A stretch of DNA of 64,000 nt from Acidipila sp. EB88. Lineage in GTDB: Bacteria > Acidobacteriota > Terriglobia > Terriglobales > Acidobacteriaceae. Below, in pieces: positions 970 to 64,000 of this stretch. The notes below the pieces were generated by a model that did no database searches, was not told the DNA's origin, and worked only from the letters and a program-made list of their open reading frames with translations. The position numbers were made by a program, and so were the translations under genes. Each line of letters begins with the position of its first letter. Within the stretch, counting starts at the first letter, position 1. The DNA lies in contig NZ_QWEV01000005.1 of assembly GCF_003858395.1 (NCBI RefSeq), forward strand, positions 1,984,001-2,048,000, in the 5' to 3' direction.

Positions 970-1095
970 AAGCCGCCTGCGCGGCTGGCGGCCACTTCGT
1001 GGCGGGCAGCCGCAAGAGCAAAGCTCTGGTACTTACCAAATATTTGTCTCGAGGAGACCGCCAGCCGCAATAGCGCTATGCGCCAGCAGGCGGTC
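970..1095. repeat. Decayed copy of the ~150-bp compound palindrome
   Basis: The left part (GCCGCCTGCGCGGCTGGCGG, followed by GCCACTTCGTGGC) matches the left arm of the intact copy at 62864, including the small hairpin with a TTCG loop. The right part keeps only CCAGCAGGCGGTCTTCG. The central stem is not conserved. It sits between the divergent HIT and recQ genes, unlike the intact copies at 47097 and 62864, which lie in convergent gaps. Confidence 0.5.
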
Positions 1096-45146: not shown

Positions 45147-45156
45147 TAGGCTCGCT

Positions 45157-45187
45157 GAGGGGCGCTGTGCATCTCAGCACACGCCTC
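45157..45187 (+). terminator. Hairpin between the glycosyltransferase and transporter genes
   Basis: GAGGGGCGCTGTGC pairs imperfectly with GCACACGCCTC around an ATCTCA loop. No T run follows; it may be a weak terminator or a leader structure for the next gene. Confidence 0.35.
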
Positions 45188-45228
45188 AAGGTTTCCCCAG
45201 ACGTTTCCAGGAGAATTGACCTCACCCC

Positions 45229-47097
45229 ATGTCTCTCACCGATCTCCTTCTAGGCAAGCCGCTCGCCACATCCGAGGAACACTCAGAACAGATCGGCGCT
45301 TCCTCGGGCGTCGCGATTTTTGGGCTGGACGGACTCTCCTCCGCGGCATACGGACCGGAAGCAGCACTGACCCTGCTCCTGCCCCTCGGCTTCGCCGGCA
45401 TTGAGCACATCGTTCCCATCACTGCCGCCATCATCGGGCTGCTGCTCATCGTCTTCGTCTCCTACCGGCAGACCATCGATGCCTATCCCAACGGCGGCGG
45501 CTCCTATACCGTTGCAACCGAGAATCTGGGCGTGTCCGCCGGTCTGCTTGCTGCCGCGGCTCTCATGATCGACTACGTACTGACCGCGGCTGTCGGTATC
45601 TCCGCCGGCGTCGGCGCGCTGATCTCCGCCGTGCCCACGCTGCAGCCGCATACCCTCTCCCTGTGCCTGGGCATCCTGGCCGTGCTCACCCTGATCAACC
45701 TGCGTGGCGTGCGCGACACCGGCCTGATCATCCTGGTCCCGACCTACCTGTTCATCGGCAGCCTTCTGCTGCTCATCGGCCTCGGCCTCTTCCACACCAT
45801 CGTTGCCGGTGGCCACCCCCATGCCGTGATCCATCCGCCCAAACTCCCCGGCGCGACCGAGGCATTGTCGTTCTGGCTGCTGCTCAAGGTCTTCTCGAGT
45901 GGCTGTACCGCCATGACCGGGGTCGAAGCCGTGTCCAACGGCGCCAACGCCTTCCGCGAGCCGCGCGCCCCTACCGCGAAAAAGACGCTGACCGTGATCA
46001 TCGCGACGCTGGTCGCCCTGCTCGCCGGCATCGCCTTTCTCTGCCGCGCATACAACGTCGGCGCCACCGATCCCAACTCCCCGCACTACCAGAGCGTGCT
46101 GTCCGAACTGCTGCAGGCTGTGACCGGGCGCGGCATCTTCTACTGGGTTGCGATGAGCTCCATCCTGCTGGTGCTCGCGCTTTCTGCCAACACGGCCTTC
46201 GCCGGTTTCCCGCGCGTGTTGCGCGTCATCGCCCTCAACGGCTACCTGCCGCGTGTGTTTACCCTGCGCGGCCGCCGCCTGCTCTACTCGTGGGGCGTGT
46301 ACCTGCTGGTCCTGCTCACCGCGATGCTGCTGCTGATCTTCCGCGGTGTCACCGACCGTCTGATCCCGCTCTACGCCATCGGCGCCTTCCTTGCCTTCAC
46401 CCTCTCGCAGGCCGGCATGGTGGAGCACTGGCGCAAGAACCCCGGCAAGGGTTCCCGCTTCAAGATGCTCGTCAACGGCATCGGTGCATTCGCCACCGGC
46501 ATCACCACCTTGGTCGTGCTGGTCACCAAGTTCGTCAGCGGCGCCTGGGTCACCGCGCTGCTGATTCCACTGCTCATCATGGTCATGGTGATGGTGCACC
46601 ACCACTACGAACGCGTGCGCCGTGAAATCTCCACCGACGCACCACTCGACACCACGGGCCTGCTCGAACCCTTCGTGATCGTCCCCATCGATCGCTGGAG
46701 CCGCATCTCCGAGAAGGCGCTTCGGCTGGCCATGGTTATGTCCAGCGAGGTGCAGGCCGTCCACGTCATGGCCGAGGAAGACGGGCAGCAGGTCACCATC
46801 TGCGACGAATGGGAACAGATGGTCGTCACCCCCCTGCGCGCCGCCAACCGCCCCGTGCCGGAACTCGTCACCCTCTCCTCGCCTTTCCGCTTCGTGCTCC
46901 TGCCCATGGTTAAACACGTGCTTGAGCAGGAAAAACGCTACGCGGATCGCCACATCGCCGTGCTTGTTCCCGAGCTGGTGGTCAAACACTGGTACGAAAA
47001 CCTGCTCCACAACCAGCGCGGCAACCTGCTCAAACTCCTGTTGCTGGTGCGCGGCAACCAGCGCATCTTCGTGATCAACATCCCCTGGTACCTCTAA
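45229..47097 (+). CDS. KimA-like APC-superfamily potassium/amino-acid transporter
   Basis: A 622-residue transporter with twelve hydrophobic helices (about 25-465) and a cytoplasmic C-terminal domain of about 150 residues. The first helix reads SSGVAIFGLDGLSSAAYGPEA, then YPNGGGSYTVA, and the last helices TKFVSGAWVTALLIPLLIMVMVMVHHHYERV, which together match the KimA (YdaO) potassium importers rather than classical amino-acid permeases of 450 residues. Proton-coupled K+ uptake is the likely role. Its stop codon touches the 150-bp palindrome at 47097. Confidence 0.8.
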   Translation: MSLTDLLLGKPLATSEEHSEQIGASSGVAIFGLDGLSSAAYGPEAALTLLLPLGFAGIEHIVPITAAIIGLLLIVFVSYRQTIDAYPNGGGSYTVATENLGVSAGLLAAAALMIDYVLTAAVGISAGVGALISAVPTLQPHTLSLCLGILAVLTLINLRGVRDTGLIILVPTYLFIGSLLLLIGLGLFHTIVAGGHPHAVIHPPKLPGATEALSFWLLLKVFSSGCTAMTGVEAVSNGANAFREPRAPTAKKTLTVIIATLVALLAGIAFLCRAYNVGATDPNSPHYQSVLSELLQAVTGRGIFYWVAMSSILLVLALSANTAFAGFPRVLRVIALNGYLPRVFTLRGRRLLYSWGVYLLVLLTAMLLLIFRGVTDRLIPLYAIGAFLAFTLSQAGMVEHWRKNPGKGSRFKMLVNGIGAFATGITTLVVLVTKFVSGAWVTALLIPLLIMVMVMVHHHYERVRREISTDAPLDTTGLLEPFVIVPIDRWSRISEKALRLAMVMSSEVQAVHVMAEEDGQQVTICDEWEQMVVTPLRAANRPVPELVTLSSPFRFVLLPMVKHVLEQEKRYADRHIAVLVPELVVKHWYENLLHNQRGNLLKLLLLVRGNQRIFVINIPWYL

Positions 47098-47243
47098 ACC
47101 GCCTGCGCGGCTCGCGGTCCCTTCGGGACATGTACTCGCTCAGAACAAGGGCCTCAAGCTTTCTGGAAAAATCATCCAGAAAGCTTGAGGCCTTTGCGTT
47201 TCAGGTACACCCGCCACGAAGTGGCCGCATCCCGCGTAGGCGC
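47097..47243. repeat. Compound palindrome, copy A
   Basis: Outer arm CCGCCTGCGCGGCTCGCGG, small hairpin GTCCCTTCGGGAC (TTCG loop), a central 18-base perfect stem (47150-47167 with 47175-47192), then a matching CGAA-loop hairpin GCCACGAAGTGGC and a decayed right outer arm CCGCGTAGGCG. It fills the gap between two convergent stop codons (47097 and 47249) exactly. Related copies at 62864 and 63741. Confidence 0.85.
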
Positions 47244-47248
47244 TCTTG

Positions 47249-50157: not shown

Positions 50158-53100
50158 GCGGTTGCATTCTCCCGGCCATTTCCGTGGCCCTGTTGCTCCG
50201 AAGCCCTGTCCTGCTTTTCCTGCTCATGCCGCTTTTTCTGGTCTTCCTTCTGCTGCCGCTCAGCCCGCTTCCGCTCCAGCCGCGTGTGCACCACGCTGAA
50301 GAACGTCGGGATAAAGAACAGCGTCGAGGTCGTCGCAAACAGCAGTCCGCCGATCACCGCGCGGCCCAGCGGCGCATTCTCTTCGCCGCCATCGCCGAGA
50401 CCCAGCGACATCGGCAGCATGCCGATCATCATCGCCAGCGCCGTCATGATCACCGGCCGGAACCGTGTGAACCCCGCCGCAATCGCCGACTCGGTCGCCT
50501 CGCCCGGGTGCTGCTCCAGGTGTTCCCTGGCAAACGACACCACCAGGATGGAGTTCGACGTCGCGACGCCCATGCACATAATCGCGCCCGTCAGCGCCGG
50601 CACGCTGATGTGCGTACCCGTCAGGAACAGGAACCACACGATGCCAGACAGCGCTGCCGGCAGGCCCGAGATGATAATGAACGGGTCAAGCCAGCTCTGG
50701 AAGTTCACTACGATCAGCGCGTAGACCAGCACGATCGAGAACGCCAGCCCGAGGTACAGGCCGGTGAACGAAGTGTGCATCGTCTGCACCTGCCCGCGCA
50801 CCACCAGCCGCGAGCCATGCGGCAGCTCGTTCTTCATACCCGCGATGATCTGTTCCATGTGCTTATCCACGCTGGACAGATCGCTGTTCACCACGTTGCC
50901 GTAGATATCGATCGCTGGCGAGATGTTGTAGTGCGAGACCGTACCCATCTCCTCGCCCTGCGTAAACGTCGCCACGTTGCCCAGGATCTGCAGCGGCCGT
51001 GGTCCCGTCACCGAGCTCTGCGGCATGATCGCCGCCAGCGACGAGGGTGAAGGCCCCGTGTACCCGGCAGCCCCAGCCACCGCCGTGCTCGCTCCCGAGG
51101 TCGCATTGCCCGTCGCCGCCAGCGGAATGTTGGAAAGATCGTTCAGCGTGTCGAGGTTGTACTGCGGCGACTGCACCGCGATGTTGTACGAAACATTGTT
51201 CTTCGGATCCAGGAAGAACGTCGGTGAAGTCTGGAACGATCCGCTGGTCGCCGACAGAATGCTCTGCGCCACGTCCTGCTGGGACAGTCCAAGCTGCTGG
51301 CTCTTGGTCCGGTCCACGTCCACGTACATGCGCGGATTGTTGAACGGCTGCTGGATACGCAGGTCGGCCGTGCCGGGCACGTAGCGGATTCGGTCCAGCA
51401 GCTTCACCGCGAACGCGCGGTTGCCCACTAGGTTCGGCCCCGAGATCTGGATGTCGATCGGCGCCGGCAGGCCGAAGTTCAGGATCTGCGTGATCATGTC
51501 CGATGGCAGCTCGTAAAAGATCGTGCCCGGGAACCGCTGCGCCAGGATGCCGCGTAGCTTCTGCACATACAGCTCGCTCGGGTGATGCTTCTCGTTCAAC
51601 GACACCTGGATATCCGCGTCTGCGGGGCCGATCGGCGCCGAGTTCGAGTACGTCAGGTTGATGCCGGAGTAGGGAAGCCCGATGTTGTCGATGATCGTCG
51701 TCAGCTCGCTCGCCGGGATCACCTCGCGGATCGTCTTATCCACCTGGTCGATCAGCCGCGCCGTCTCTTCGATCCGGGTGCCGGTGCGCGCACGCACATG
51801 CAGCGTGAACCTCCCTGCATCAACCGACGGGAAGAAGTCCTGCCCCAGGAACGGGAACAGCAGCACCGCCGAGCCAATGGTGAACCCGAAGAACAGCAGC
51901 GTAAAGATCAAAGGCCGCGCAATGCACAACTCCAGCACCGTCTGATAGCCGTTGCGCACCTTTTCAAACTGCCGCTCAAACCCAAGCTGGAACCGGATCA
52001 GCGGGTTGCGGCTTTCATGCTTCGCCCGCGCTGTCTCTTCGTCATGCTCCTTCAGCATGTACATCGCCATGGTCGGCACCACGGTACGCGAGAGCAGGTA
52101 CGAGGCCAGCATGGCGAACACCACGGCTTCGGCCAGCGGCACAAACAGGTACTTGGCCACGCCCGACAGGAAGAACATCGGCACAAACACGATGCAGATC
52201 GAGATCGTCGCAACAAGTGCCGGCACGGCAATCTGCGAAGCCGCGTCCAGAATGCCCTGCTCAATTGCCTTGCCTTCTTCAAGGTTGCGGTTGATGTTCT
52301 CGATCTCCACCGTCGCGTCATCCACCAGGATGCCAACCGCGAGCGCGAGCCCGCCCAGCGTCATGATGTTGATCGTCTCGCCCAGCGCCGCGAGCACCAG
52401 CAGCGAGGTGATGATCGACAGCGGGATCGACACCGCGATGATGATCGTCGAGCGGAACGAGCCCAGGAACAGCAGGATCATGATCGCGGTCAGGCAGGCG
52501 GCGATCAGCGCCTCACGTACTACGCCCGAGATCGAGGCCTTCACGAACACTGACTGGTCGGCCAGCGGCGTGATCTTGAGCTGCGGCGGCAGCTGCGCCA
52601 GCAGCCCCGGCAGCTTGGAGCGGATGCCCGCCACGATGTCCAGCGTGGACGCGTCGCCCGTCTTGATCACCGAAAGCAGCGAAGCCCTTTGCCCATCCAC
52701 GCGCACGATGTTGGTCTGTGGCGGGAAGCCGTCGCGCACGTGCGCCACGTCGTGCATGTAGACCATGTTGCCGTTGACCGAGCGGATCGGCAGGTTGTTC
52801 AGCCCCTCGATCGTCGACGGCGCCGAGTTGGTCTCCACCTGGTACTCGAACTGGTTCACCTTGAACGTGCCCGATGGCAGGATCAGGTTCTGCGAGGCCA
52901 CCGTCGACACCACGTCGGTCGGCGCCAGCCCCTTGGACTGCAGCGCCTGCAGGTTCAGGTCCACCTGCACCTGCCGCTGCTTGCCGCCATACGGGTAGGG
53001 AATACCCGCGCCCGCCACCGTCACGAGCTGCGTCCGGATGAAGTTCAACCCGAAATCGTTCAGCTGCTGCTCGCTCAATCCCTGTCCCGACAGGCCGAGC

Positions 53101-53522
53101 TGGATGATAGGCACGCTCGAGGCCGAGTACTGCAGGATCAGCGGCGGCGTGGTGCCGGCCGGCAACTGCCGCAGCTGCGTTTGTGCAATCGCCGTCACCT
53201 GCGCGTTGGCGTCGGCGATGTTCACATTGGGCTGAAAGAAGATCTTGATGATGCCGATCCCGTTCAGCGACTGCGATTCCACGTGCTCGATGTCGTTGAC
53301 AGTGGTCGTCAGCGTGCGCTCAGATAGCAGCACGATCCGGCTCGACATCTGCTCGGGCGACAGGCCCGTGTACTGCCAGATCATCGCGATAACCGGGATA
53401 TTGATGTTCGGGAAGATATCGGTCGGCGTTTCCACGATCGCGACGGGACCGAGGATCAGCAGCAGCAAAGCCAGCACGGCAAAGGTATAAGGCCGTCGCA
53501 GCGCGAGGCGAACAATCCACAT
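50154..53522 (-). CDS. RND-family efflux permease
   Basis: A 1122-residue proton-driven inner-membrane pump of the AcrB/MdtB fold: MWIVRLALRRPYTFAVLALLLLI, two large periplasmic loops (residues about 35-330 and 590-890), twelve helices, and the charged pair of helix 4 in GLALAVGILVDDATVEIENI. The DD in helix 4 is the proton-relay position. Substrate unknown; the GPVAIVETPTDIFPNINIPVI start is that of multidrug rather than metal pumps. First gene of an operon with adaptor and outer-membrane channel; the last 30 residues are basic and acidic, an extension beyond most relatives. Confidence 0.94.
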   Translation of the reverse strand: MWIVRLALRRPYTFAVLALLLLILGPVAIVETPTDIFPNINIPVIAMIWQYTGLSPEQMSSRIVLLSERTLTTTVNDIEHVESQSLNGIGIIKIFFQPNVNIADANAQVTAIAQTQLRQLPAGTTPPLILQYSASSVPIIQLGLSGQGLSEQQLNDFGLNFIRTQLVTVAGAGIPYPYGGKQRQVQVDLNLQALQSKGLAPTDVVSTVASQNLILPSGTFKVNQFEYQVETNSAPSTIEGLNNLPIRSVNGNMVYMHDVAHVRDGFPPQTNIVRVDGQRASLLSVIKTGDASTLDIVAGIRSKLPGLLAQLPPQLKITPLADQSVFVKASISGVVREALIAACLTAIMILLFLGSFRSTIIIAVSIPLSIITSLLVLAALGETINIMTLGGLALAVGILVDDATVEIENINRNLEEGKAIEQGILDAASQIAVPALVATISICIVFVPMFFLSGVAKYLFVPLAEAVVFAMLASYLLSRTVVPTMAMYMLKEHDEETARAKHESRNPLIRFQLGFERQFEKVRNGYQTVLELCIARPLIFTLLFFGFTIGSAVLLFPFLGQDFFPSVDAGRFTLHVRARTGTRIEETARLIDQVDKTIREVIPASELTTIIDNIGLPYSGINLTYSNSAPIGPADADIQVSLNEKHHPSELYVQKLRGILAQRFPGTIFYELPSDMITQILNFGLPAPIDIQISGPNLVGNRAFAVKLLDRIRYVPGTADLRIQQPFNNPRMYVDVDRTKSQQLGLSQQDVAQSILSATSGSFQTSPTFFLDPKNNVSYNIAVQSPQYNLDTLNDLSNIPLAATGNATSGASTAVAGAAGYTGPSPSSLAAIMPQSSVTGPRPLQILGNVATFTQGEEMGTVSHYNISPAIDIYGNVVNSDLSSVDKHMEQIIAGMKNELPHGSRLVVRGQVQTMHTSFTGLYLGLAFSIVLVYALIVVNFQSWLDPFIIISGLPAALSGIVWFLFLTGTHISVPALTGAIMCMGVATSNSILVVSFAREHLEQHPGEATESAIAAGFTRFRPVIMTALAMMIGMLPMSLGLGDGGEENAPLGRAVIGGLLFATTSTLFFIPTFFSVVHTRLERKRAERQQKEDQKKRHEQEKQDRASEQQGHGNGRENATA

Positions 53523-53962
53523 AAAAGGCGGCGTCTCCGTGCAGGACCGAGCGTCAGTGCGCTGCGTTCAGCCTGCGTTCACACATCCACACAACTTGAA
53601 ATAGGCAGGCACATGCACCAGTGCGTCCCGACGAGGTCCCCGGGTGCCCGCAAAAGGCAGAGCGCATGGCGCGGCCAGTAACAAGCTTTTCCCTGCGCCA
53701 GCCGCGGCATGCGGCGGAGCGGCCCCAACACATAGTGTTAGTAGACGCTGATTTCAGGCGAAAGGACCCGCTGTTTCTCCCCGGCTGTCATGCTTTCCGT
53801 TGCGCAGGTAACAATCGATGACGGTTTCGAGGCAGCGTGGCGCCGCTGCGGCACTCCAAAGCGGCCGCCAGACGCCCCTCAAGCGACCCCGCAAGCGAGC
53901 CATGAACCAGCAACATTCACGGGGCAGACGCGACGAACGCGCCCACGCCCCTGGCGCTGCGC
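53523..53962. other. Gene-free region upstream of the RND operon
   Basis: 440 bases between the RND promoter side and the end of the SDR gene. No gene recognised. A short inverted repeat AACA-CATAG-TGTT at 53727-53739 could bind a TetR-type repressor, but no regulator gene is adjacent. Confidence 0.3.
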
Positions 53963-54736
53963 CTACATATTCAGGTTCTTGAACAGAAACCCCGGGACGC
54001 TCTTCACCATAAACATGACCACCCGCCAGAAGCCCGGCAGGTACACCGTGTCCCTGCGGTTTTCCACCGCGCGCACAATGCCCGCGCCGATCGCCCGCGG
54101 CTCCGCGAACAACGGGCCACGCGGCAGGTGTGCCGTCATTGGCGTCGCCACAAACCCCGGCTTGATCAGCAGCACCTGCACCCCGGTCCGGTCGATGCGG
54201 TTGCGCAGCCCATCCACCAGCACGTTCAGCGCCGCCTTGGACGCCCCGTACACATAGTTACTCTGCCGCCCGCGATCCCCCGCTACCGACGAGATCACCG
54301 CCAGGCACCCACGGCTGTGCCCCTCGAAGTAGTTCGCCAGCCACGTGATCAGCGAGGCAGGCGACAGAAAGTTGGTCCGGTACACCGCCTCGGCCAGCCG
54401 CGGATCCATCTCCGCCGCCCGCTGGTTGCCCAGTACGCCGTAGGCCACCAGCGCCATGTCGATCATGCCCAGCGCAAACGCCGCCGACGACAGCATCTCC
54501 GCATGCGCTTCCGTGTTGTCCAGGTCCATTGCGTACGAGGTCACGGCCCTAGCTCCGCGCGTGCGCAGGTCGTTCGCCACCGCGTCCAGCTTGTACGGGT
54601 CGCGCGCCACCAGGAAGAAGCTCACTTCCCCGGCGCCGCCTTTTTCAAGCAGCCGCCGCGCGGTCGCCTGCGCAATGGCCGAAGTCGCTCCCAGGATCAC
54701 AATGCGTTTCGGGTCGATCACCGGTTGCTTAGCCAC
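53963..54736 (-). CDS. DprE2-like short-chain dehydrogenase
   Basis: A 257-residue SDR. The NAD-binding start is ILGATSAIAQATARRL, and the catalytic Ser, Tyr and Lys lie in ISSVAGDRGRQSNYVYGASKAAL. Segments AYGVLGNQ, VYGASKAAL, LLIKPGFVATPMTAHLP and a hydrophobic C-terminus follow the mycobacterial DprE2, which reduces the keto intermediate to decaprenyl-phosphoryl arabinose. It overlaps the DprE1-like gene by eight bases and is last of three genes. The identification rests on motif order plus context. Confidence 0.85.
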   Translation of the reverse strand: MAKQPVIDPKRIVILGATSAIAQATARRLLEKGGAGEVSFFLVARDPYKLDAVANDLRTRGARAVTSYAMDLDNTEAHAEMLSSAAFALGMIDMALVAYGVLGNQRAAEMDPRLAEAVYRTNFLSPASLITWLANYFEGHSRGCLAVISSVAGDRGRQSNYVYGASKAALNVLVDGLRNRIDRTGVQVLLIKPGFVATPMTAHLPRGPLFAEPRAIGAGIVRAVENRRDTVYLPGFWRVVMFMVKSVPGFLFKNLNM

Positions 54737-56141
54737 GTCCCGTCACCCTCTGCCAGAAGCCCGAATCGAATGCCGGGTCCACGTACGCGCCAAACTGCTC
54801 CCACTGCGGAAAGAACGCCCGGAAGTGCTCGCCCGACATCCGCGCGTCCTTGGCCGGGTACATCCGCCCGCCATGCTCGAAGGTGATCGCCGCCAGCCTG
54901 TCCAGCAGGTCAAATGACACCTCTGCGCGCACGGGGAAGTCCAGCGCCAGCGTCAGCCCGGGCCTCGGGAACGACATCACCCCTGGCGACGGCACATCGC
55001 CAAACACCTTCAGCACCGCCAGGAACGACGCCATCCCCGACTGCGTGATCGCCTTCATGATCTGCGTAATCCCGTGCTGGTCCGTGTCCCAAGGCAGCAC
55101 GCACTGGAACTGCAGGAGTCCCGCCTTGCCGTACATCCGGTTCCAATGGCCGATCTTGTCCAGCGGGTAAAAGAACGGCTCGTAGTCCACCACCGAGTGC
55201 ACCGTCTTGTGCCGCTGCTTGTTGTAATACGCCGTGTTGAACAGCCCGATCGTGGCCTTGTTCAGCAGGAATCCAGGCAGGTCCACCGGCAGCGCGACGC
55301 TCGGCTCGCCGCCGTTCGGGGACCGGCGCAGCGGGTGGGCCGCGGTCGTCTCGATCCCCGCATGCGCGCCCTGCATGAAAATGCCGCGCGCAAAGTTCTT
55401 GCCGGTCGACACGCAGTCGATCCACGCCACCGTGTATTCCACCTCGGCCGCCGCCCGCGACAGCTCCAGGAACTCCGCAAACCCCACGAACTTGTCGCCC
55501 CGGTACTGGATCCCGCGCGACACGATCGGCCGCAAACGCACCTCGGCCCACGAGATCAACCCCGTCAGGCCCAGCCCGCCGATCGTCATCTGGAACCATT
55601 CCCGGTTCTCGCGTCCCGAGCACAGAATGCGCGAGCCATCCGAGCGCACGAGCTCGAACCGCAGCACGTGCGAGCCGAACGTCCCGGCGATGTGGTGGTT
55701 CTTGCCGTGAATATCATTCGCAATCGCGCCGCCCACCGTCACGAACTTGGTGCCCGGCGTCACCGGCAGAAAGAAACCAAGCGGCACCGCAAAGTCCAGG
55801 ATCTCGGCCAGCGTTACCCCTGCTTCGCAGCGCAGCAGCCCCGTCGCCGGGTCAAAGTGCAGAAAGCGATCCATGCCACGCGTCTGCAGCAGCGTGCCGT
55901 CTTCGAGCAGGCACACGTCCCCGTAGGACCTGCCCGCGCCCACCGGCAGCATCGGGCCATCCCGGCGGTGCGCCGGGGGAAAGTCCGAGATCCAGGAAAG
56001 CGTGCGCAGCTCGGTCTGCAGCCTCGGGTAGCGACCCCACGACTCGAACGCGGCCTTGGCACGCTTTTTCGGCCCATCGGCCGCCCGGGTGGACGGCAGC
56101 GGCTCGCTGGACTGCTGGGGCTCAGAGGAGGGTTCTGCCAT
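54729..56141 (-). CDS. DprE1-like FAD-dependent polyprenyl-phosphoribose oxidase
   Basis: A 470-residue PCMH-type flavoprotein. FAD-binding parts LPVGAGRSYGDVCLLEDG and TVGGAIANDIHGKNHHIAGTFG; the latter is the DprE1 signature. The C-terminal half has ALO-type substrate-domain features (LLQFQCVLPWDTDQHG, YPAKDARMSGEHF). DprE1 oxidises the 2'-OH of decaprenyl-phosphoryl ribose, working with DprE2 to epimerise it to arabinose. Start ATG at 56141 has AAGGA upstream; about 30 residues at the front are Ser/Glu/Gln-rich. The 162 bases before it hold no gene. Confidence 0.88.
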   Translation of the reverse strand: MAEPSSEPQQSSEPLPSTRAADGPKKRAKAAFESWGRYPRLQTELRTLSWISDFPPAHRRDGPMLPVGAGRSYGDVCLLEDGTLLQTRGMDRFLHFDPATGLLRCEAGVTLAEILDFAVPLGFFLPVTPGTKFVTVGGAIANDIHGKNHHIAGTFGSHVLRFELVRSDGSRILCSGRENREWFQMTIGGLGLTGLISWAEVRLRPIVSRGIQYRGDKFVGFAEFLELSRAAAEVEYTVAWIDCVSTGKNFARGIFMQGAHAGIETTAAHPLRRSPNGGEPSVALPVDLPGFLLNKATIGLFNTAYYNKQRHKTVHSVVDYEPFFYPLDKIGHWNRMYGKAGLLQFQCVLPWDTDQHGITQIMKAITQSGMASFLAVLKVFGDVPSPGVMSFPRPGLTLALDFPVRAEVSFDLLDRLAAITFEHGGRMYPAKDARMSGEHFRAFFPQWEQFGAYVDPAFDSGFWQRVTGRG

Positions 56142-56303
56142 GGTGGTCTGTCCTTGCTCAGGCAGCGTATGCGCCACTGCCGGCGATCTTGTTCAGTGTA
56201 TCGGGGCACGGGAGGCTTGTGCCTGCCCGGCTTCCATCCCTCGGCTACGCCACCAAATGCGCTCCGGCCCGTGCATTTCTAACCCGTGTGTCGCACGCCG
56301 CGC

Positions 56304-57791
56304 TTAGTGGATGGCCGCCACCAGCAGCACGCACACCGCCGTCGCGCCCAGCAGCAGGCTCATCCGGTCCGTCAGCGCAAAGATCACCGGGTCCTCATCC
56401 AGTTCGCCGCGGCTGGCCAGCAGCCACACCCGGCTCACCCACAGGATCATGATCGGCGTCATCAGCCACAGGCGCTGCGGGTGCGGGTACAGTCCCGCCA
56501 CGTCGCCCTGGCTGATGTACAGCGAGAACACCACGATCGAGGCATACGCGCTGCTGGTGCCGAACGACCGCATCTGCTCGATGTCGCTTAGCAGGTAGCC
56601 GCGCCCGTTCGAGGGCACCTGCCCTGCGGCGCGGATATTCTGCAGCTCCGCAAACCGCTTCACGATCGCCAGTGAAAGGAACAGGAACACCGAGAAGCCC
56701 GCCAGCCAGGGCGAAATGGCTACCCCCGTCGCGGCTGAGCCGGCCAGCAGCCGCAGCGTGTACAGCCCCGACAGCAGCACCACGTCCACCAGCACCACCC
56801 GCTTCAGGTACAGCGAGTACGAAAGCGTTGTCACCAGGTATGCCACCAGGCACAGCATAAAGCGCCCCGGCAGGAACGCGGCCAGGCCCAGTGCCGCCAC
56901 CAGCAACCCTGCCGACAGCAACACGCCCGTCTTGGCCTGCAGGTCGCCCGCCGCAAACGGGCGCCGCCGCTTGCGCGGATGCTTCCGGTCTGCCTCGATA
57001 TCCAACAGGTCGTTCACGATATAGGTCGAGGACGCACACAGGGAGAAACATACAAACGCCAGCACGGCCTCGAACAGCCGCTGCGGCTGCAGCGCATGGG
57101 CCAGCAGCAGCGGCACAAACATCAGCACGTTCTTGGCCCACTGGTGCACCCGCGCCGCACGCTGCAGCGCCCGCAGCGGCGAGACCCGGTCGATAAACTG
57201 CCGGGCCGCAACGAACTTGCCGGCGCGAATCGCGCGGCGCAGCGCTGCATCCGGGTTCGCCGTCATCGCCGTGCCCGCATGGCAAAGCAGCGGCACATCC
57301 GGCCGCGCATTGCCGATGTAGTCAAAGCCACCCGCCCCGAACCGCTCCTCGAATGAGCGCAGCTTGTTGTGGCCGGTCAGGTTGGTGCGCCCATCGCTTG
57401 CCAGCACCCCGTCAAACAGGCCCAGGTACTTCGCCACGCGGTCGGCCAGCGCGGAGTCGGCGCCGGTGGCCAGGTACAGGCGCCTGCCCCGCCCGCGTTC
57501 CAGCTCGAGATACTGCAGCAGCGGCTGGTTATAGGGCAGGGTAGCGACGTCCAGGCGGATCCGCGCCGTCACCTCGCGCTTCAGCGTTGCCTTGCCCCGT
57601 GCGATCCAGCCCGGCACCAGCGCAAGGTCACGCGTGTGCGTGCGCACCATCAGCAGCAATGTATCGATCAGGGTGTCGCACTTCACGAGCGTGCCATCCA
57701 GGTCCACGCATAGCGGACGCGCCGTTGCCCTGCTTGCTTCAACCTTGGCCGCGGCGGACTGGATGGGAGTACTCGCTTGTATCATCAGCAT
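56304..57791 (-). CDS. Fusion of HAD phosphatase-like domain and UbiA prenyltransferase (phosphoribosyl-polyprenyl synthase-like)
   Basis: A 495-residue two-domain protein. Residues about 20-205 are a HAD-type domain: PLCVDLDGTLVKCDT (nucleophile and acid/base Asp), LYLATGADSALADRV, FDYIGNARPDVPLL. Residues about 215-495 are a UbiA membrane enzyme: ARVHQWAKNVLMF, the NDLLDIEADRKHPRKRRRP motif (the first Asp-rich metal site) and the KRFAEL segment, as in the mycobacterial enzyme that moves phosphoribose to decaprenyl phosphate. The fused phosphatase could remove the 5-phosphate in the next step. The ATG follows an extended -10 by five bases. First gene of the operon with the two Dpr-like genes. 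Confidence 0.88.
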   Translation of the reverse strand: MLMIQASTPIQSAAAKVEASRATARPLCVDLDGTLVKCDTLIDTLLLMVRTHTRDLALVPGWIARGKATLKREVTARIRLDVATLPYNQPLLQYLELERGRGRRLYLATGADSALADRVAKYLGLFDGVLASDGRTNLTGHNKLRSFEERFGAGGFDYIGNARPDVPLLCHAGTAMTANPDAALRRAIRAGKFVAARQFIDRVSPLRALQRAARVHQWAKNVLMFVPLLLAHALQPQRLFEAVLAFVCFSLCASSTYIVNDLLDIEADRKHPRKRRRPFAAGDLQAKTGVLLSAGLLVAALGLAAFLPGRFMLCLVAYLVTTLSYSLYLKRVVLVDVVLLSGLYTLRLLAGSAATGVAISPWLAGFSVFLFLSLAIVKRFAELQNIRAAGQVPSNGRGYLLSDIEQMRSFGTSSAYASIVVFSLYISQGDVAGLYPHPQRLWLMTPIMILWVSRVWLLASRGELDEDPVIFALTDRMSLLLGATAVCVLLVAAIH

Positions 57792-57796
57792 CGGCG

Positions 57797-57805
57797 AGTA
57801 TAGCA
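57797..57805 (-). promoter_or_regulatory. Extended -10 promoter of the ubiA-dprE1-dprE2-like operon
   Basis: TGC-TATACT, five bases before the ATG at 57791, with no Shine-Dalgarno. A leaderless mRNA is expected. Confidence 0.5.
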
Positions 57806-57922
57806 GGCGCTCAGCCACCGCATGGTCGTCAGTCTGCCTGCTTCCCGCGAGTCTTCGCGCAGCCTGGCTCATCCAATGCGAAGGCCCGGCACACCGGGAT
57901 CGTTCGCGAGGATCGCACCCAT

Positions 57923-59106
57923 ATGGCAGCAAAGCCGCTTCTGCTTTCCGTACTCGACCAGTCGCCCATCGCCGAAGGTTCCACCGCCGGGGAGGCGCTC
58001 GATCGCTCCGTGGAGCTAGCCCAGCACGTTGAGGCGCTCGGCTATCGGCGCTTCTGGATGTCCGAACACCATGCCATGCAGACCCTCGCCTGCTCTTCGC
58101 CCGAGGTGGTGCTGGCCCGCATCGGCGCTGCTACCCGCTCCATCCGCATCGGCTCCGGCGGCATCATGCTGCCGCACTACGCACCGTTCAAGGTCGCGGA
58201 AAACTTCCTGACCCTGCACGCCATGTACCCCGGCCGCATCGACCTCGGCGTGGGCCGCGCGCCCGGCGGCGGACCGCTCGAGTCGCAGGCCCTGCGCCGC
58301 GACCGTAAGTCCATGCCCGCCGACGACTTTCCCGACCAGCTGGCCGAGCTGCTCGCCTGGCTCGGCAGCAATCCCGATGCGGCTCCCCACGGCGCCGGCG
58401 CCGACCCAGGCACCGACTCGGACACCGGTCACGACGCCAACCAGGGCTTCCCCCACGGCCACCCTTTCAGCCGCATCCACATCTCGCCCGCCCCCGCGCC
58501 GGGCACCGGCACCCCCACGGTCTGGCTCCTGGGTTCGAGCATGTGGGGCTCCGCCGCCGCTGCCCAGTGGGGTTTGCCCTACGCCTTTGCGCATTTCTTC
58601 TCCCCCGTCGCCACCCGCAATGCGCTCGAAAGCTATCGCCGCGCCTTCCAGCCCTCCGCCCGTCTTGCCGCCCCGCAGTGCACTGCCGCGGTCGGCGTCA
58701 TCGTGGCCGACACCGACGAAGAAGCACGCTTCCTCCATGCCAGCGTGCGCCTCCTGCAGCAGCGCATCCGCGAAGGCGACCGCCGCCCCGTGGCCGATCC
58801 CGCGCAGGCCGAGCGCCTGCTCAACGCCCGCTCCGCCGCCACCAGCGGCCCGTTCGGGTTCGCGCCCGACACCCCGGGGAAGAGGGCGAGTTCCCCCGCT
58901 ACATCGTCGGCAGCCCCGCCACCGTGGAGCGCGAACTCGGCGCCATGGCCCGCTCGCTGGCGCTCGACGAAATCGTGGTCAACACCATCACGCACAGCCA
59001 CGCGGCGCGCCTGCGCTCCTACACCCTGCTCGCGGAGATCTTCCCTCAGCAGCATCCCGCCGCCACCTTCACCACCGACGCCACCCCCGCCCTGGCCGCC
59101 CGGTAA
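57923..59106 (+). pseudogene. Luciferase-like (LLM class) flavin oxidoreductase, frameshifted
   Basis: The first frame encodes MAAKPLLLSVLDQSPIAEGS..., an LLM-class monooxygenase with SEHHAMQTLACSSPEVVLARIGAATRSIRIGSGGIMLPHYAPFKVAE and TVWLLGSSMWGSAAAAQWGLPYAFAHFF. At the run CCCCGGGG (58872-58879) the family sequence continues in another frame (GEEGEFPRYIVGSPATVERELGAMARS) and ends at 59106. One base is missing there. It could be a real mutation or a homopolymer sequencing error; about 90 percent of the protein is intact. ATG at 57923 has GAGG upstream. These enzymes use FMNH2 to oxidise small organics. Confidence 0.8.
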
Positions 59107-59194
59107 CCCGGGCGCCGAAGCCAGCGCGGAGCCGGTAGCATGCCTCGTACGTCTCACACGCATCAAAACAACAAACGCACTTGCGAGGAACTCA

Positions 59195-59893
59195 ATGGCA
59201 GGAGATAGAAAACCAGGCACCATCGTGCTTGTACACGGCGCATGGTGCGATGGCAGCGTCTGGACCAACGTACTCACCACGCTCGCGCATGAGGGCTATT
59301 CGGTGCGCTCCGCGCAGCTTCCGCTCAAGTCCTACGAGGGCGATGTGGCTGCCGTGGAACTGCTGCTCGACCACATCAAGGGCCCGGTGCTGCTGGTCGG
59401 CCACTCCTATGCCGGCGCCGTCATCTCGGCTGCCGGCAACAACCCCAAGGTCGTCGGCCTGGCCTACGTGTGCGCCTTCGCCCCCGAGGCCGACGAGGTG
59501 TTCGGCAGCCTCCTGGCCATGCATCCGGCTGCTGAACAGATGACCATTGGCCCCGATGCCAACGGCTTCCTGTGGCTCGATGCTCCCTTTGCATCGGCCG
59601 CGCTCGGGCACGACCTGCATCGCGGCGTCATCCACCTGGCCGTCGCCGTGCAAAAGCCCACCAGCTACAAGCTCTTTGAAAGCAAACTCTCCGACCCGGC
59701 CTGGAAGCGCAAGCCCACCGCCTACCTCGTCACCACGGAAGACCGCATCCTCGCACCCGCCACCCAGCGCGAGCTGGCCAAACGCATCCACGCCCGCGTC
59801 GAGGAGGTCGCCGCCAGCCACCTCGTGGTGCTCTCGCAACCGGCCGCCGTGGCCCAGTTCATCCGCGCCTCCGCGGAAACGCTCGAAGGCTGA
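59195..59893 (+). CDS. Alpha/beta hydrolase
   Basis: A 232-residue hydrolase. TIVLVHGAWCDGSVW is the oxyanion-hole strand, GHSYAGAV holds the nucleophile Ser (about residue 76), the acid is in TTEDRILAP and the His in ASHLVVLSQP. Small enzymes of this shape are usually esterases or act on aryl/lactone substrates; the true substrate is not evident. ATG at 59195 has GAGGA six bases upstream. It may be co-transcribed with the flavin oxidoreductase. Confidence 0.85.
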   Translation: MAGDRKPGTIVLVHGAWCDGSVWTNVLTTLAHEGYSVRSAQLPLKSYEGDVAAVELLLDHIKGPVLLVGHSYAGAVISAAGNNPKVVGLAYVCAFAPEADEVFGSLLAMHPAAEQMTIGPDANGFLWLDAPFASAALGHDLHRGVIHLAVAVQKPTSYKLFESKLSDPAWKRKPTAYLVTTEDRILAPATQRELAKRIHARVEEVAASHLVVLSQPAAVAQFIRASAETLEG

Positions 59894-59914
59894 ACCCCGC
59901 GGCGCCCGCCGCAC

Positions 59915-59975
59915 ACACAAAAGGGCTGCACCCCGGCGACTTTTGAAGTCGTCCGGGGGTGCAGCCCTTTTGTGC
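59915..59975. terminator. Strong bidirectional terminator between hydrolase and glgP
   Basis: Near-perfect stem of about 25 bases: ACAAAAGGGCTGCACCCC and CGGCGACTT on one arm, their complement on the other, ending CAGCCCTTTTGT. A- and T-runs at both ends fit termination on both strands between the convergent genes. Confidence 0.8.
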
Positions 59976-60013
59976 GCGTCGGCAACGCCCTGTGCGCCGT
60001 TCAGCGCGGCCGT

Positions 60014-61840
60014 TTAGTGCGACGCAGACGCCAGCGTTTCCAAGTCTTCAGTAGCAAGCTCCTGCGGAAAATAAGCGTTCAACGCATACTGCTCTACCAT
60101 CCGCTGCGTGTTAAAGAACGAGCCGTTCAACGCAATCGACGAGCGCATCACCCTCTGCCACTGTTCCTTGTCATCCTGGTACAGCGGCAAAATGACCTCG
60201 TCGAGCTGCGTGTACAGCGACTCCGCCTCGTGCGCTTCCTCTTCCAAATCCGCAATTGCCCAACCCGTCACGCCTTCGATCCAGCCCTCGATCCACCAGC
60301 CATCCAGGATCGACAGCGAAGGCACGCCGTTCAGCGCCGCCTTCATCCCGCTGGTGCCGCTCGCCTCGTACGGGCGTTTCGGCGTGTTCAGCCAAAGGTC
60401 CACGCCGCTGGTCAGCAAGCCGCCCAGCTTCCACTCGTAGTTCTCGATGTACAGGATCTTCAGCAGACCGCCGGAAAGCTCATGCGCCAGCTCGATCACG
60501 CGATGAATCTTGCTCTTGCCCGGCTCGTCCGCAGGGTGCGCCTTGCCCGCATACAGCACCTGCAACCCGCCGAACTTCTTCGCGATCGCCACCAGCCGCT
60601 CGGCATCCGTGAACAGCAGGTCCATGCGCTTGTACGTCGCCGCACGCCGAGCAAAACCGATCGTGAACACGTCGGTCTTCAGCGTCTCGCCCGTGCGGTC
60701 CATCACCGCGTCCACCAGCAGTTGCTTGGCTTCGCGATGCGCCTTCACGATCTCCACTTCCGGGATATCGATCGCATAGCGCAGCGTCACGTTGTCCCGG
60801 CGCCAGCGCGGCAGGTGCTTGTCAAACAGCTCCAGGAACGGCTTCGATGCCCACGTGCCCGCATGCACCCCGTTCGTGATCGCGTCGATCTGGTACCCCG
60901 GAAACATCGCCTGCGACACGATCCCGTGCTGCATCGCCACGCCGTTCACAAAGCGTGAGAAGCGCAGCGCCACGTAGGTCATGTTCAGCATGCCCTCGTG
61001 CGCACCGCCCGCCCGCTCCAGCATGTCGGTCGTGTCCGCACCAAGAATGCGCCGCGCCTGCTCCATCGAGAACCGGTCATGCCCCGCCGGCACCGGCGTA
61101 TGCGTGGTAAACACGCATTGCTCACGTACGCGTGCAAAGTCGTCGGGCCCGGCCAGCGCAAACGTGCGCCCGGCCAGCGTGCGGCCCACCAGCGCCACCG
61201 TCAGCAGCGCTGCGTGGCCCTCGTTCATGTGGAACACCTCTGGTTCCAGCCCCAGCGCCAGCAGCAGCCGCGCCCCGCCGATGCCCAGCACGATCTCCTG
61301 CCGCAGTCGGTAGTCCGTGTCGCCGCCATACAGCCGGTCGGTCAGCGTCCGGTCCGCGGCCGCGTTCTCCGGCACATCCGTATCCAGCAGGAACACCGGC
61401 ACCACGTGCCCCGTGACCCCGCGAATGTCATGCCGCAGCGCCCGCACCGCAACCTGCCTACCCTCGATCTCCACCCATACCAGCGGCGCTTCCGGCGTGG
61501 TAAACGCGTCCACCTGCCAGGGCTGCTCGACCTCGGTCTGCACACCGTCGGGGCTCAGCAACTGCCGAAAGTAGCCGCGGCGGTGCGCCAGCGTAACGGC
61601 AACCAGCGGCACGCCCAGGTCGGCCGCGGCGCGCAGCGTGTCGCCTGCCAGCACGCCCAGTCCGCCGGAGTAGGTGTTCATCTCTGGTTCAATTGCAATT
61701 TCCATCGAGAAGTAGGCGACCCGGGCTTCGAGGCTGGTGCTGGTGTCCGGGTAAGAGAAGCTTGGCTGTTTCCGCATAGACAGTGTTGGTACCGGCTTTC
61801 CCTGTTGGTGCTCCAAGTCTAGCAAGAGGCCAACTGCCAT
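60014..61840 (-). CDS. glgP: Alpha-glucan phosphorylase, short type
   Basis: A 608-residue GT35 phosphorylase of the short thermophile/acidobacterial-like type, without the extended regulatory N-terminus. VAYFSMEIAIEPEMNTYSGGLGVLAGDTL, VFHMNEGHAAL, TTHTPVPAGHDRF, ITNGVHAGTW, and the PLP site EASGTSGMKAALNGV with its Lys are present. It releases glucose-1-phosphate from glycogen. ATG at 61840 has GGAG five bases upstream; Met at 61777 is an alternative. Confidence 0.93.
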   Translation of the reverse strand: MAVGLLLDLEHQQGKPVPTLSMRKQPSFSYPDTSTSLEARVAYFSMEIAIEPEMNTYSGGLGVLAGDTLRAAADLGVPLVAVTLAHRRGYFRQLLSPDGVQTEVEQPWQVDAFTTPEAPLVWVEIEGRQVAVRALRHDIRGVTGHVVPVFLLDTDVPENAAADRTLTDRLYGGDTDYRLRQEIVLGIGGARLLLALGLEPEVFHMNEGHAALLTVALVGRTLAGRTFALAGPDDFARVREQCVFTTHTPVPAGHDRFSMEQARRILGADTTDMLERAGGAHEGMLNMTYVALRFSRFVNGVAMQHGIVSQAMFPGYQIDAITNGVHAGTWASKPFLELFDKHLPRWRRDNVTLRYAIDIPEVEIVKAHREAKQLLVDAVMDRTGETLKTDVFTIGFARRAATYKRMDLLFTDAERLVAIAKKFGGLQVLYAGKAHPADEPGKSKIHRVIELAHELSGGLLKILYIENYEWKLGGLLTSGVDLWLNTPKRPYEASGTSGMKAALNGVPSLSILDGWWIEGWIEGVTGWAIADLEEEAHEAESLYTQLDEVILPLYQDDKEQWQRVMRSSIALNGSFFNTQRMVEQYALNAYFPQELATEDLETLASASH

Positions 61841-62018
61841 TTGCTCTCCAGATTCCCGTTTCGTCGTTGCGGTTACGCTTTCGCGATTACGTCTTCGCCC
61901 TGCGACCCGGCCGATGATCGCCCTGGGTCCGCGCACCCCCGCGCGCACCCATGCGCGTCCCCCGTGCGCGCCTCATCCGGCTGCGGAGCAGCTCTTCAAA
62001 CCCCGCATGCGCTTCCGG

Positions 62019-62024
62019 TACACT
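62019..62024 (+). promoter_or_regulatory. Predicted -10 box of the dienelactone hydrolase gene
   Basis: TACACT, seven bases before the ATG at 62032 and no Shine-Dalgarno, as before recQ and mtaB. Confidence 0.4.
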
Positions 62025-62031
62025 GGCGCGC

Positions 62032-62853
62032 ATGCCCACTCCGCGCCTCCGTGCCGCCCTGCAAGCGATTGCCGCCACTGCTCTGCTCGCCCTCCCTGCC
62101 GCACTCCACGCGCAGGACTGGGCGAAGACCCGCCTCGAAAGCTCCCCGCGCCACCACGAGTACGTCACCGTACCCAGCGGGGGACGCTCCGTGCAGGTCT
62201 TCGTGGTCTACCCCGAGGTCGAGACCAAGGCGCCGGTCGTGGTCTTGATCCACGAAATCTTTGGCCTCTCCGACTGGGCGCGCGAAATGGCCGACGAACT
62301 GGCCGCACAGGGCTACATCGTCGTCGAACCCGATCTCCTCAGCGGCGCAGGCCCCGGCGGCGGTGGGTCCTCAAGCTTTGCCAGCCAGGACGACACCGTC
62401 AAGGCTGTCTCCATGCTCGACCCCGCGCAGGTCACCGCCGACCTCAACGCCGCCGCCGACTACGCCGAAAAACTCCCCTCCACCAACGGCCACCTCGCAG
62501 TCGCCGGCTTCTGCTGGGGCGGCGGCAAAAGCTTCCTCTTCGCCACGCAGCGCGCCGACCTCCGCGATGCCTTCGTCTTCTACGGGCCGCCACCCACGGA
62601 CGCCGCGCTCGCCGGCATCCACGCGCCTGTCTTCGGCTTCTACGCCGGCAACGACGCCCGCATCGCCGCCACCGTCCCGGCCACCACCACCGCCATGAAG
62701 GCCGCACACAAGCACTACCAGCCCACCCTCTACGACGGCGCGGGCCACGGCTTCATGCGCCTCGGCGAAGCCCCCGACGCCACCCCGGAAAACAAGAAAG
62801 CCCGCGATCAGGCCTTTGCGTCCCTACTTGCCGAACTCAAAAAACTCCAGTAG
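62032..62853 (+). CDS. Secreted dienelactone-hydrolase family protein
   Basis: A 273-residue protein with a signal peptide (about 1-27, ending LHAQ). The DLH triad is visible: nucleophile Cys in AGFCWGGG, Asp in YAGNDARIAAT, His in DGAGHGF. APVVVLIHEIFGLSDWAREMADELA is the oxyanion strand and loop. Dienelactone hydrolases cleave lactone rings in aromatic breakdown; secreted ones of this kind have broader esterase roles. Start ATG at 62032 gives the signal peptide. Confidence 0.88.
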   Translation: MPTPRLRAALQAIAATALLALPAALHAQDWAKTRLESSPRHHEYVTVPSGGRSVQVFVVYPEVETKAPVVVLIHEIFGLSDWAREMADELAAQGYIVVEPDLLSGAGPGGGGSSSFASQDDTVKAVSMLDPAQVTADLNAAADYAEKLPSTNGHLAVAGFCWGGGKSFLFATQRADLRDAFVFYGPPPTDAALAGIHAPVFGFYAGNDARIAATVPATTTAMKAAHKHYQPTLYDGAGHGFMRLGEAPDATPENKKARDQAFASLLAELKKLQ

Positions 62854-62863
62854 CGAACAACAA

Positions 62864-63013
62864 AACCGCCTGCGCGGCTCACGGCCACTTCGTGGCGTGT
62901 ACTCGTTAAGAACAAATGCCTCAAGGTATCCGGGTGCGTCTACCCGGGATACCTTGAGGCTTCTGCTTTTCAGGTGCACATGTCCCGAAGGGACCGCGAG
63001 CCGCGCAGGCGGT
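62864..63013. repeat. Compound palindrome, copy B
   Basis: Left outer arm AACCGCCTGCGCGGCTC, hairpin GGCCACTTCGTGGC with TTCG loop, central stem (GCCTCAAGGTATCCGGGT against 62942-62960, one bulge), hairpin GTCCCGAAGGGAC with CGAA loop and right outer arm CGCGAGCCGCGCAGGCGGT. It lies between the convergent dienelactone-hydrolase and msrA stops. The two small hairpins are swapped relative to copy A. Confidence 0.88.
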
Positions 63014-63017
63014 CTTA

Positions 63018-63689
63018 TTACTTCCCGCGATAATCCAAAAACAGGTCCGGATAATCCCGCTTCAGTGCCTCGATCTTGGGCCGGTCGCACACCTCGATAT
63101 ACGGGTTGTTCGGGTTCTTCAACGCGTAGTCCTGGTGGTACGCCTCGGCCTCGTAAAAGCCCTTCAGCGGAACGATCTGCGTGGCAATCTGCTTCGGAAA
63201 CACCTTGGCCGCATCCAGCTTCGCGACATACTCCTCGCTCAACTTCTTCTGCTCCGGCGTGCCGTAAAAAATCACTGAACGGTACGACGAGCCCACATCC
63301 GGCCCCTGCCGGTTCACCTGCGTCGGGTCATGCGCGACCGAGAAGAAGATCTGCAACAGCCGCCCATACGTAATCTTCGACGGGTCATACGTAACCTTCA
63401 CCGACTCCGCGTGCCCGGTATTCTCCTGCGTCACCTGCCCGTACGTCGCCGTTGCCGACGAGCCGCCCGCATAGCCCGCCTCGGTATCCGTCACACCCTT
63501 GACACGCTCAAACACCGACTGCGTTCCCCAGAAGCATCCACCCGCAAACACCGCCGTCGCCTTGCCCGGCTTGCTCGCCAGCGCCGCATCGTTGGTGGGC
63601 GCCGGGATCGGCCCCGCCGCCCACATCACCGCACTTCCCAAACCCAGCACAGCCCCTAACAAACTCCGTCGCCCCGGCAGCAATCGCAT
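63018..63689 (-). CDS. msrA: Secreted peptide-methionine (S)-S-oxide reductase
   Basis: A 223-residue MsrA. The catalytic motif GGCFWGTQ is at about residue 53, with EAGYAGGSSATATYGQV and EAYHQDY, and an N-terminal twin-Arg-like leader (GRRSLLGAVLGLGSAV), so it is exported and repairs oxidised Met in envelope proteins. The C-terminal region contains one Cys (VCDRPKIEAL) that could resolve the sulfenic acid. The ATG at 63689 has AGGGGTGG upstream; a GTG at 63698 is less likely. The stop lies five bases from palindrome copy B. Confidence 0.93.
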   Translation of the reverse strand: MRLLPGRRSLLGAVLGLGSAVMWAAGPIPAPTNDAALASKPGKATAVFAGGCFWGTQSVFERVKGVTDTEAGYAGGSSATATYGQVTQENTGHAESVKVTYDPSKITYGRLLQIFFSVAHDPTQVNRQGPDVGSSYRSVIFYGTPEQKKLSEEYVAKLDAAKVFPKQIATQIVPLKGFYEAEAYHQDYALKNPNNPYIEVCDRPKIEALKRDYPDLFLDYRGK

Positions 63690-63740
63690 CCGTTCCACCC
63701 CTGTCTATCTAGATGCACCACCGCAATGCAACGACCAATA

Positions 63741-63890
63741 AACCGCCTACGCGGCTCGCGGTCCCTTCGGGACGGGTACTCGCAAACAACCAAGGCCTGA
63801 AGGTACCCCGATCGAATCGTCCGGGGTACCTTCAGGCTCTTGCTTTTCAGGCACACACGGCACGAAGTGGCCGCGAGCCGCGTAGGCGGT
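63741..63890. repeat. Compound palindrome, copy C
   Basis: Left outer arm AACCGCCTACGCGGCTCGCGG, hairpin GTCCCTTCGGGAC, central 16-base stem (63795-63810 with 63822-63837), hairpin CACGAAGTGG and right outer arm CCGCGAGCCGCGTAGGCGGT. The outer stem has A-T where copy B has G-C, so pairing is kept. It lies between the galactokinase-like stop and the msrA start, two bases from the former. Confidence 0.88.
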
Positions 63891-63891
63891 T

Positions 63892-64000
63892 TTACAGCAC
63901 TTTCTTCGCCCCATCCGAAGCATGGCACTGGAACACGTCCGGCTTGATCCCGGTCTGCTGCTCATACGCCTTGGCGACCGCATCGCCGAATGCCCTGGCG
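63892..64000 (-). CDS. C-terminal end of a GHMP kinase, probably galactokinase
   Basis: Only the last 35 codons lie in the window. They read AFGDAVAKAYEQQTGIKPDVFQCHASDGAKKVL and stop at 63892. The Y-x-x-x-TG-x-x-P-x-x-F-x-C-x-ASDGA pattern is that of the galactokinase C-terminus, but the fragment is too short to separate galactokinase from related GHMP kinases. The stop codon lies two bases from palindrome copy C. Confidence 0.55.
   Translation of the reverse strand, partial: ARAFGDAVAKAYEQQTGIKPDVFQCHASDGAKKVL

Follow-up and report, generated by a model that had tools for sequence, protein, structure and literature searches.

The window, which is the whole 64,000-nucleotide stretch of DNA analyzed here, contains four copies of a compound palindromic element, three of them complete (E values are those of the R1 covariance-model matches). 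Copy A (47096..47246, + strand; E 8.3e-33) fills the space between two convergent genes, one for an amino-acid permease (stop 47095-47097) and one for an outer-membrane efflux protein (stop at 47249). Its left hairpin b is T-type by sequence (GTCCC-TTC-GGGAC; 47117..47129, + strand), its right hairpin b is A-type by sequence (GCCAC-GAA-GTGGC; 47213..47225, + strand), and between them lies a central stem of 18 bp (47150..47192), recognized from the sequence, the fold and a scan for terminator-like sites. Copy B (62863..63015, + strand; E 6.2e-34) sits between the stops of a dienelactone hydrolase gene (ending at 62853) and msrA (stop 63018), at distances of 9 and 2 nt. It has an A-type left hairpin b (GCCAC-TTC-GTGGC; 62884..62896, + strand; sequence and pairing within the family), a central stem GCCTCAAGGTATCCGGG / CCCGGGATACCTTGAGGC (62918..62960, + strand) supported by sequence, fold and covariation, and a right hairpin b that is heterotypic to the left one, being T-type by sequence (GTCCC-GAA-GGGAC; 62982..62994, + strand). 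Copy C (63740..63892, + strand; E 1.4e-32) lies immediately 3' of the galactokinase stop; its other neighbor, msrA, is likewise on the - strand and has the element upstream of it. Its left hairpin b is T-type (GTCCC-TTC-GGGAC; 63761..63773, + strand), its right hairpin b is A-type with one mismatch (GGCAC-GAA-GTGGC; 63859..63871, + strand), both by sequence, and its central stem GCCTGAAGGTACCCCG / CGGGGTACCTTCAGGC (63795..63837, + strand) is again supported by sequence, fold and covariation. Copy D (970..1079; E 1.2e-13 on the - strand), located where a HIT-domain gene and a gene for a RecQ-like helicase diverge, is decayed and short, with two arms and no central stem, and its right arm is enlarged by GCGCATAGCGCTAT.

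The first-pass annotation had reported three intact copies (47097-47243, 62864-63013 and 63741-63890) and a decayed one, and all four are real. Its statement that two copies fill convergent gaps is true of A and B; the other two settings are a same-direction gap for C and a divergent gap for D. Copies A, B and C fold at −90 to −104 kcal/mol, with z-scores of −10.4 to −11.9 against dinucleotide shuffles. Rfam gave no match above the gathering score within the window. We also observed that msrA is flanked by two elements (62854-63892); in G001, the closest relative of the genome under study (hereafter G000), the whole block from B through msrA to C is missing, and the two flanking genes adjoin.

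Anatomy and distribution of the family

A covariance model built from 16 copies was run on the whole assembly of G000, a member of the Acidobacteriaceae (4.48 Mb, 5 contigs), and matched approximately 70 distinct places, bearing out the earlier proposal of a multi-copy family. These comprised 17 complete elements (147-158 bp), 25 short inverted pairs that lack the central stem, and about 31 solo arms. At least one recognizable arm was present at nearly every fetched place, with 64 fetched loci containing arms. Two properties expected of REPINs and REPs were found: the short palindromic unit recurs at many intergenic places, and its inverted pairs, of which 17 are complete and 25 short, could each form a single hairpin. 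Searching with the central stem alone returned family members only, and we rejected it as an independent repeat. An integron attC site was considered but set aside, as the copies are dispersed and their ends show no apparent GTTRRRY/RYYYAAC boxes.

A complete element consists of two inverted units, each with two small hairpins, placed around the central stem. Each arm is approximately 50 nt long and folds on itself into hairpin a (3-4 bp, loop TGCGC) and hairpin b (5 bp, loop TTC), with the invariant GCGG between them and GTGTAC-like bases after hairpin b; read from outside to inside, it is ACC-GCC TGCGC GGC-T N GCGG TCCC TTC GGGA C RTGT. The small hairpins had been described as carrying TTCG and CGAA loops, and they are more accurately TTC/GAA triloops closed by C-G on a 5-bp stem. 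The spacer is a central hairpin of 16-18 bp with the foot GCCTCAAG...CTTGAGGC. Its tips had been said to differ completely between copies while staying paired; pairing is indeed kept through compensatory changes, but the tips have diverged from a common form, approximately GCCTCAAGATACCCCGGA. As for tags, there is no GTAG, and many arms, though not all, have ACGTCCC / CGTCAC at their inner end, where it overlaps the stem of hairpin b.

Hairpin b exists as T-type (GTCCC/GGGAC) and A-type (GCCAC/GTGGC), and the two types occur together in 16 of the 17 complete copies (P = 1.4e-4 versus a coin toss), although descent from a founder may lie behind part of this bias. The place swap of the small hairpins noticed earlier is real in 3 of the 17 complete copies, in which the arms are swapped relative to the inner segment (equivalent to inversion of one segment), and one hairpin of each type is retained. 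In three arms, the loop of hairpin a is replaced or enlarged by a self-complementary stretch, GCGCATAGCGCTAT, that is almost identical in all three (window 1046-1085; contig C5 at 2575525, + strand, locus L090; contig C5 at 669298, − strand, locus L091).

Relatives were also positive. The full-element model detected 5 of 150 genomes of the taxonomic family, in two genera, and the arm model detected 120 of 397 genomes of the order at E up to 1e-3. Strong multi-copy arm matches were mostly from the sister genus g35, with few elsewhere (e.g., g80 and one g32 genome), and the single weak arm matches in other genera may be chance. The related family in g35 is more abundant than in G000 and shares the common plan, but has a different central stem (CTCCCGTTGGTCG / CGACCAACGGGAG) and an additional outer GTCCTGCCGGAC palindrome. 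In a variant arm of this genus (L139, L141, L147, L148), the usual hairpin b is replaced by a GGGCGTTCGCACGCC-like hairpin with CTTTTTAGAGC after it. Elements are abundant in the sister-genus genomes G173, G174, G177, G178, G182, G187, G188, G242 and G257, and few or absent in G184, G192, G153 and G180.

Covariation and the origin of pairing

In 16 aligned complete copies, the central stem was paired at 93.3% of positions, compared with 78.7% after shuffling and at most 56% in slid controls, and two-sided changes occurred at 13 of its 16 pairs. Across 47 arms from the two genera, both small hairpins were paired at 93.6% (76.9% shuffled). The stems are thus paired, and their covariation exceeds both kinds of control; together with the many copies, this means that none of the outcomes named as refuting in the first-pass annotation was observed. 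The two pair changes singled out in the first-pass annotation recur in the family: the C-G to G-C change in the foot of the central stem (CG 11, GC 3 and UA 1 among 16 copies) and the G-C/A-T change in the outer stem (GC 12, AU 2, GU 1).

That outer stem had been described as an inverted repeat of roughly 20 bases. The repeat is present, but it is mostly a by-product of two-hairpin arms standing in inverted orientation and not a stem of its own. In the sister genus, hairpin a found its complement in its own arm in 55 of 56 cells, versus 39 of 56 in the other arm, through the variants CTCC/GGAG, GCCC/GGGC, CGCC/GGCG, TCCC/GGGA, CCGC/GCGG and CCAC/GTGG. In G000, hairpin b paired locally in 224 of 232 cells and at long range in 141 of 232. 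These counts led us to reject a selected long outer stem in two cases, hairpin a of the sister genus and hairpin b of G000. Hairpin a of G000 showed no preference for local pairing (162 of 232 local versus 179 of 232 long-range, counting four positions), largely because its outermost position is unpaired. Given the excess of local over long-range pairing, the most plausible functional fold is a central hairpin with two arms that each fold on themselves.

If a single RNA strand were the sole target, G-U pairs would be expected to outnumber A-C among imperfect stem cells. This was not seen: G-U and A-C numbered 12 and 10 in G000 and 8 and 7 in the sister genus, and the arm hairpins contained one G-U in 376 cells. 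The absence of a G-U preference argues against single-strand RNA as the sole target and fits a constraint that acts on DNA or on both strands, and equally templated copying between arms. The last of these would make the covariation mutational, because template switching during replication (quasi-palindrome correction) could copy one arm onto the other with no need for a selected fold, and such switching is reported to maintain hairpins through compensatory changes and inverted loops (PMC8794818). Besides the wobble counts, the share of transitions, which was similar in paired stem changes (0.69) and in unpaired spacers (0.63), and the inner segments inverted in 3 of the 17 copies favor this explanation. 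However, the arm hairpins remain paired in different genera while using several pair types, short hairpins are in our judgment poor substrates for strand switching, and copying explains pairing but not placement at stop codons. We regard it as a possible, though not the probable, source of the covariation; since it concerns the origin of pairing, it is compatible with the explanation that we prefer below. The earlier conclusion that the fold and not the sequence is selected is therefore only partly borne out: pairing is preserved while sequence changes, but template switching could yield much of the covariation.

Gene ends and terminators

With gene ends taken from a simple codon-usage caller, the complete copies of G000 lay at a median of 5 nt from the nearest stops and 68 nt from starts, in agreement with the packing against stop codons described earlier; the short pairs lay at 7 and 61 nt, respectively. 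For complete copies, 20 of 23 measured stop-side distances were 16 nt or less. In same-direction gaps, the stop was the nearer end for 7 of 7 complete copies and 13 of 13 short pairs (P = 0.00017 and <1e-5 under random placement). In most convergent gaps, both stops lay within approximately 10 nt of the element, and sister-genus copies were likewise about 10 nt or less from both convergent stops in several cases. The filled convergent gaps have no space for another terminator.

In the genus of G000, the 10 nt preceding the central stem have an A fraction of 0.64 and the 10 nt following it a T fraction of 0.61. A GC-rich stem with a T-tract on both strands, as in a bidirectional intrinsic terminator, was found in this genus only. 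This anatomy supports the RNA-level terminator among the readings offered in the first-pass annotation and suggests that the stem would terminate transcription. Among the 12 terminator-like sites listed in 45000-64000, the stem of copy A has the most pairs; the total itself is not above chance (12 versus 10.8 expected). Sister-genus elements lack a T-tract after the central stem, which rules out ordinary intrinsic termination there, and they may instead act as an RNA 3'-end barrier or together with Rho.

Orthologous gaps in g35 show the element in different states. In the convergent gap between the Omp85 and RDD genes, element-free species have an ordinary terminator just 3' of the Omp85 stop (gap 74 in G198, 72 in G175). 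In G202 and G242 that terminator persists, with a decayed half-element downstream of it, whereas in six species (G173, G178, G188, G177, G182 and G187) a complete element lies against both stops and there is no other terminator. At this one locus, the element stands in place of the native terminator, with the species compared suggesting a succession from terminator to element. The right half of the element (L223-L228) is of one type in G173 and G188 and of another in their close relatives G177, G182 and G187, which indicates mosaic exchange, as if it had been swapped with another copy. A second locus, between O-methyltransferase and IspF genes, has complete, half and absent states but no clear terminator pattern.

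Spread, retention and known repeat families

A RAYT-type or other Y1 transposase had been suggested as a partner of the element. Across 37 Y1_Tnp loci in G000 and the sister genus, no arm lay within 1.5 kb. The sole Y1_Tnp-like ORF of G000 (L031:1369-1980), which has no arm nearby, appears degenerate by inspection, having lost the first His of the HUH motif (SVFHML for an NHVHIL-like motif). Conversely, four 99%-complete sister genomes (G174, G182, G242 and G257) have at least 14 arms and zero Y1_Tnp, and g35 genomes with 7-8 Y1 genes have few arms. We therefore rejected ownership by a RAYT, as Y1 loci are arm-free and arm-rich genomes can lack Y1_Tnp, and also membership in a TIRYT terminal inverted repeat family, as none of the 37 loci is flanked by arms. 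Our searches turned up neither a transposase nor an autonomous partner, and we saw no exact empty site bearing a target duplication. The earlier idea of a non-autonomous mobile element is supported, and the dispersal of copies together with differences in occupancy between species suggests that they have been mobile.

We consider it probable that these are non-autonomous REPIN/BIME-like elements, scattered in trans and retained behind genes as bidirectional 3'-end structures. In this view, a complete copy is made of two REP-like arms in inverted orientation with a structured spacer between them, and some enzyme acting on the hairpins in trans would have scattered such copies. Copies landing behind genes would be retained as 3'-end structures, and the DNA between stop and element would then be lost, including the ancestral intrinsic terminator in at least one traced case. 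The element would thereby become the only remaining structure able to end or protect both convergent transcripts. The failure to find a transposase or an empty site counts against this explanation, as do the sister-genus stem without a T-tract and the restriction of terminator replacement to one locus, the second having no clear pattern. More tentatively, and with the odds against it, the REP-pair element might be a portable bidirectional terminator that spreads to gene ends and displaces native intrinsic terminators genome-wide, template-switch copying helping to keep its hairpins on both strands.

A purely selfish REPIN-like DNA, spread by some enzyme and tolerated only just behind stops in a compact genome, would make stop adjacency and terminator loss side effects of deletion bias with no host function. 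Solo and decayed arms, half-elements in sister species, mosaic halves swapped between orthologous copies and confinement to a few genera are all consistent with such an origin. We find it unlikely, as complete elements are kept where the ancestral terminator is gone, and random tolerated insertion does not predict both stops lying so close in most convergent gaps. It is doubtful that the elements act at the level of translation, for which the short stop-side distances and the precedent of E. coli could be invoked, where REPs no more than 15 nt from a stop codon are reported to stall ribosomes (Liang et al. 2015, as cited in PMC12306157), but wobble neutrality singles out no RNA role on one strand.

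The preferred reading, a REPIN/BIME-like family retained at gene ends, places the element close to several known systems. REPINs are REP doublets that form hairpins and in which compensatory changes are reported to be common (Bertels and Rainey, PMC3116915); the present elements share with them inverted conserved units, a less conserved spacer, intergenic location, solo remnants and compensatory changes. They differ in having two hairpins per arm, a spacer with its own long stem, two arm types that are nearly always heterotypic, and no arm near the Y1/RAYT-type loci tested. According to the sections of the survey by Di Nocera et al. (PMC3733652) on which we draw, BIMEs and REP heterodimers also combine heterodimers, structured spacers and location downstream of genes, and CGTC REPs lack a dedicated transposase, as here. 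Compared with the GTAG and CGTC REPs of those sections, the unit here is longer, has two short stems, and has neither a GTAG tag nor a clear CGTC tag with an 8-9 bp stem. The same sections mention Acidobacteria only for TIR-associated transposases; the TIRs of TIRYT transposases share with our elements the phylum and inverted repeats able to form repeated families, but not, in our data, flanking of Y1_Tnp loci by arms. The A-rich/T-rich flanked central stem between convergent genes in the genus of G000 resembles a bidirectional intrinsic terminator, whereas dispersal as a family with conserved flanking arms, and the sister-genus stem without a T-tract, do not. This family is set apart from known REPINs and BIMEs by arms with two hairpins, a terminator-like stem between those arms, the absence of an associated RAYT and, at an orthologous site, an element that has taken the place of a native terminator. 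Heterodimers among REPs are noted as unexplained in PMC3733652, and the heterotypic arms of this family bear on why REP pairs are often heterodimers.

The finding that wobble pairs are no commoner than A-C means that hairpin covariation in a repeat family need not reflect RNA-level selection. REP-like repeats have been known for decades without agreement on whether they are passengers or working parts. The present family offers a comparative test of that question, with orthologous gene ends that carry a native terminator, a terminator plus a remnant, or the element alone.
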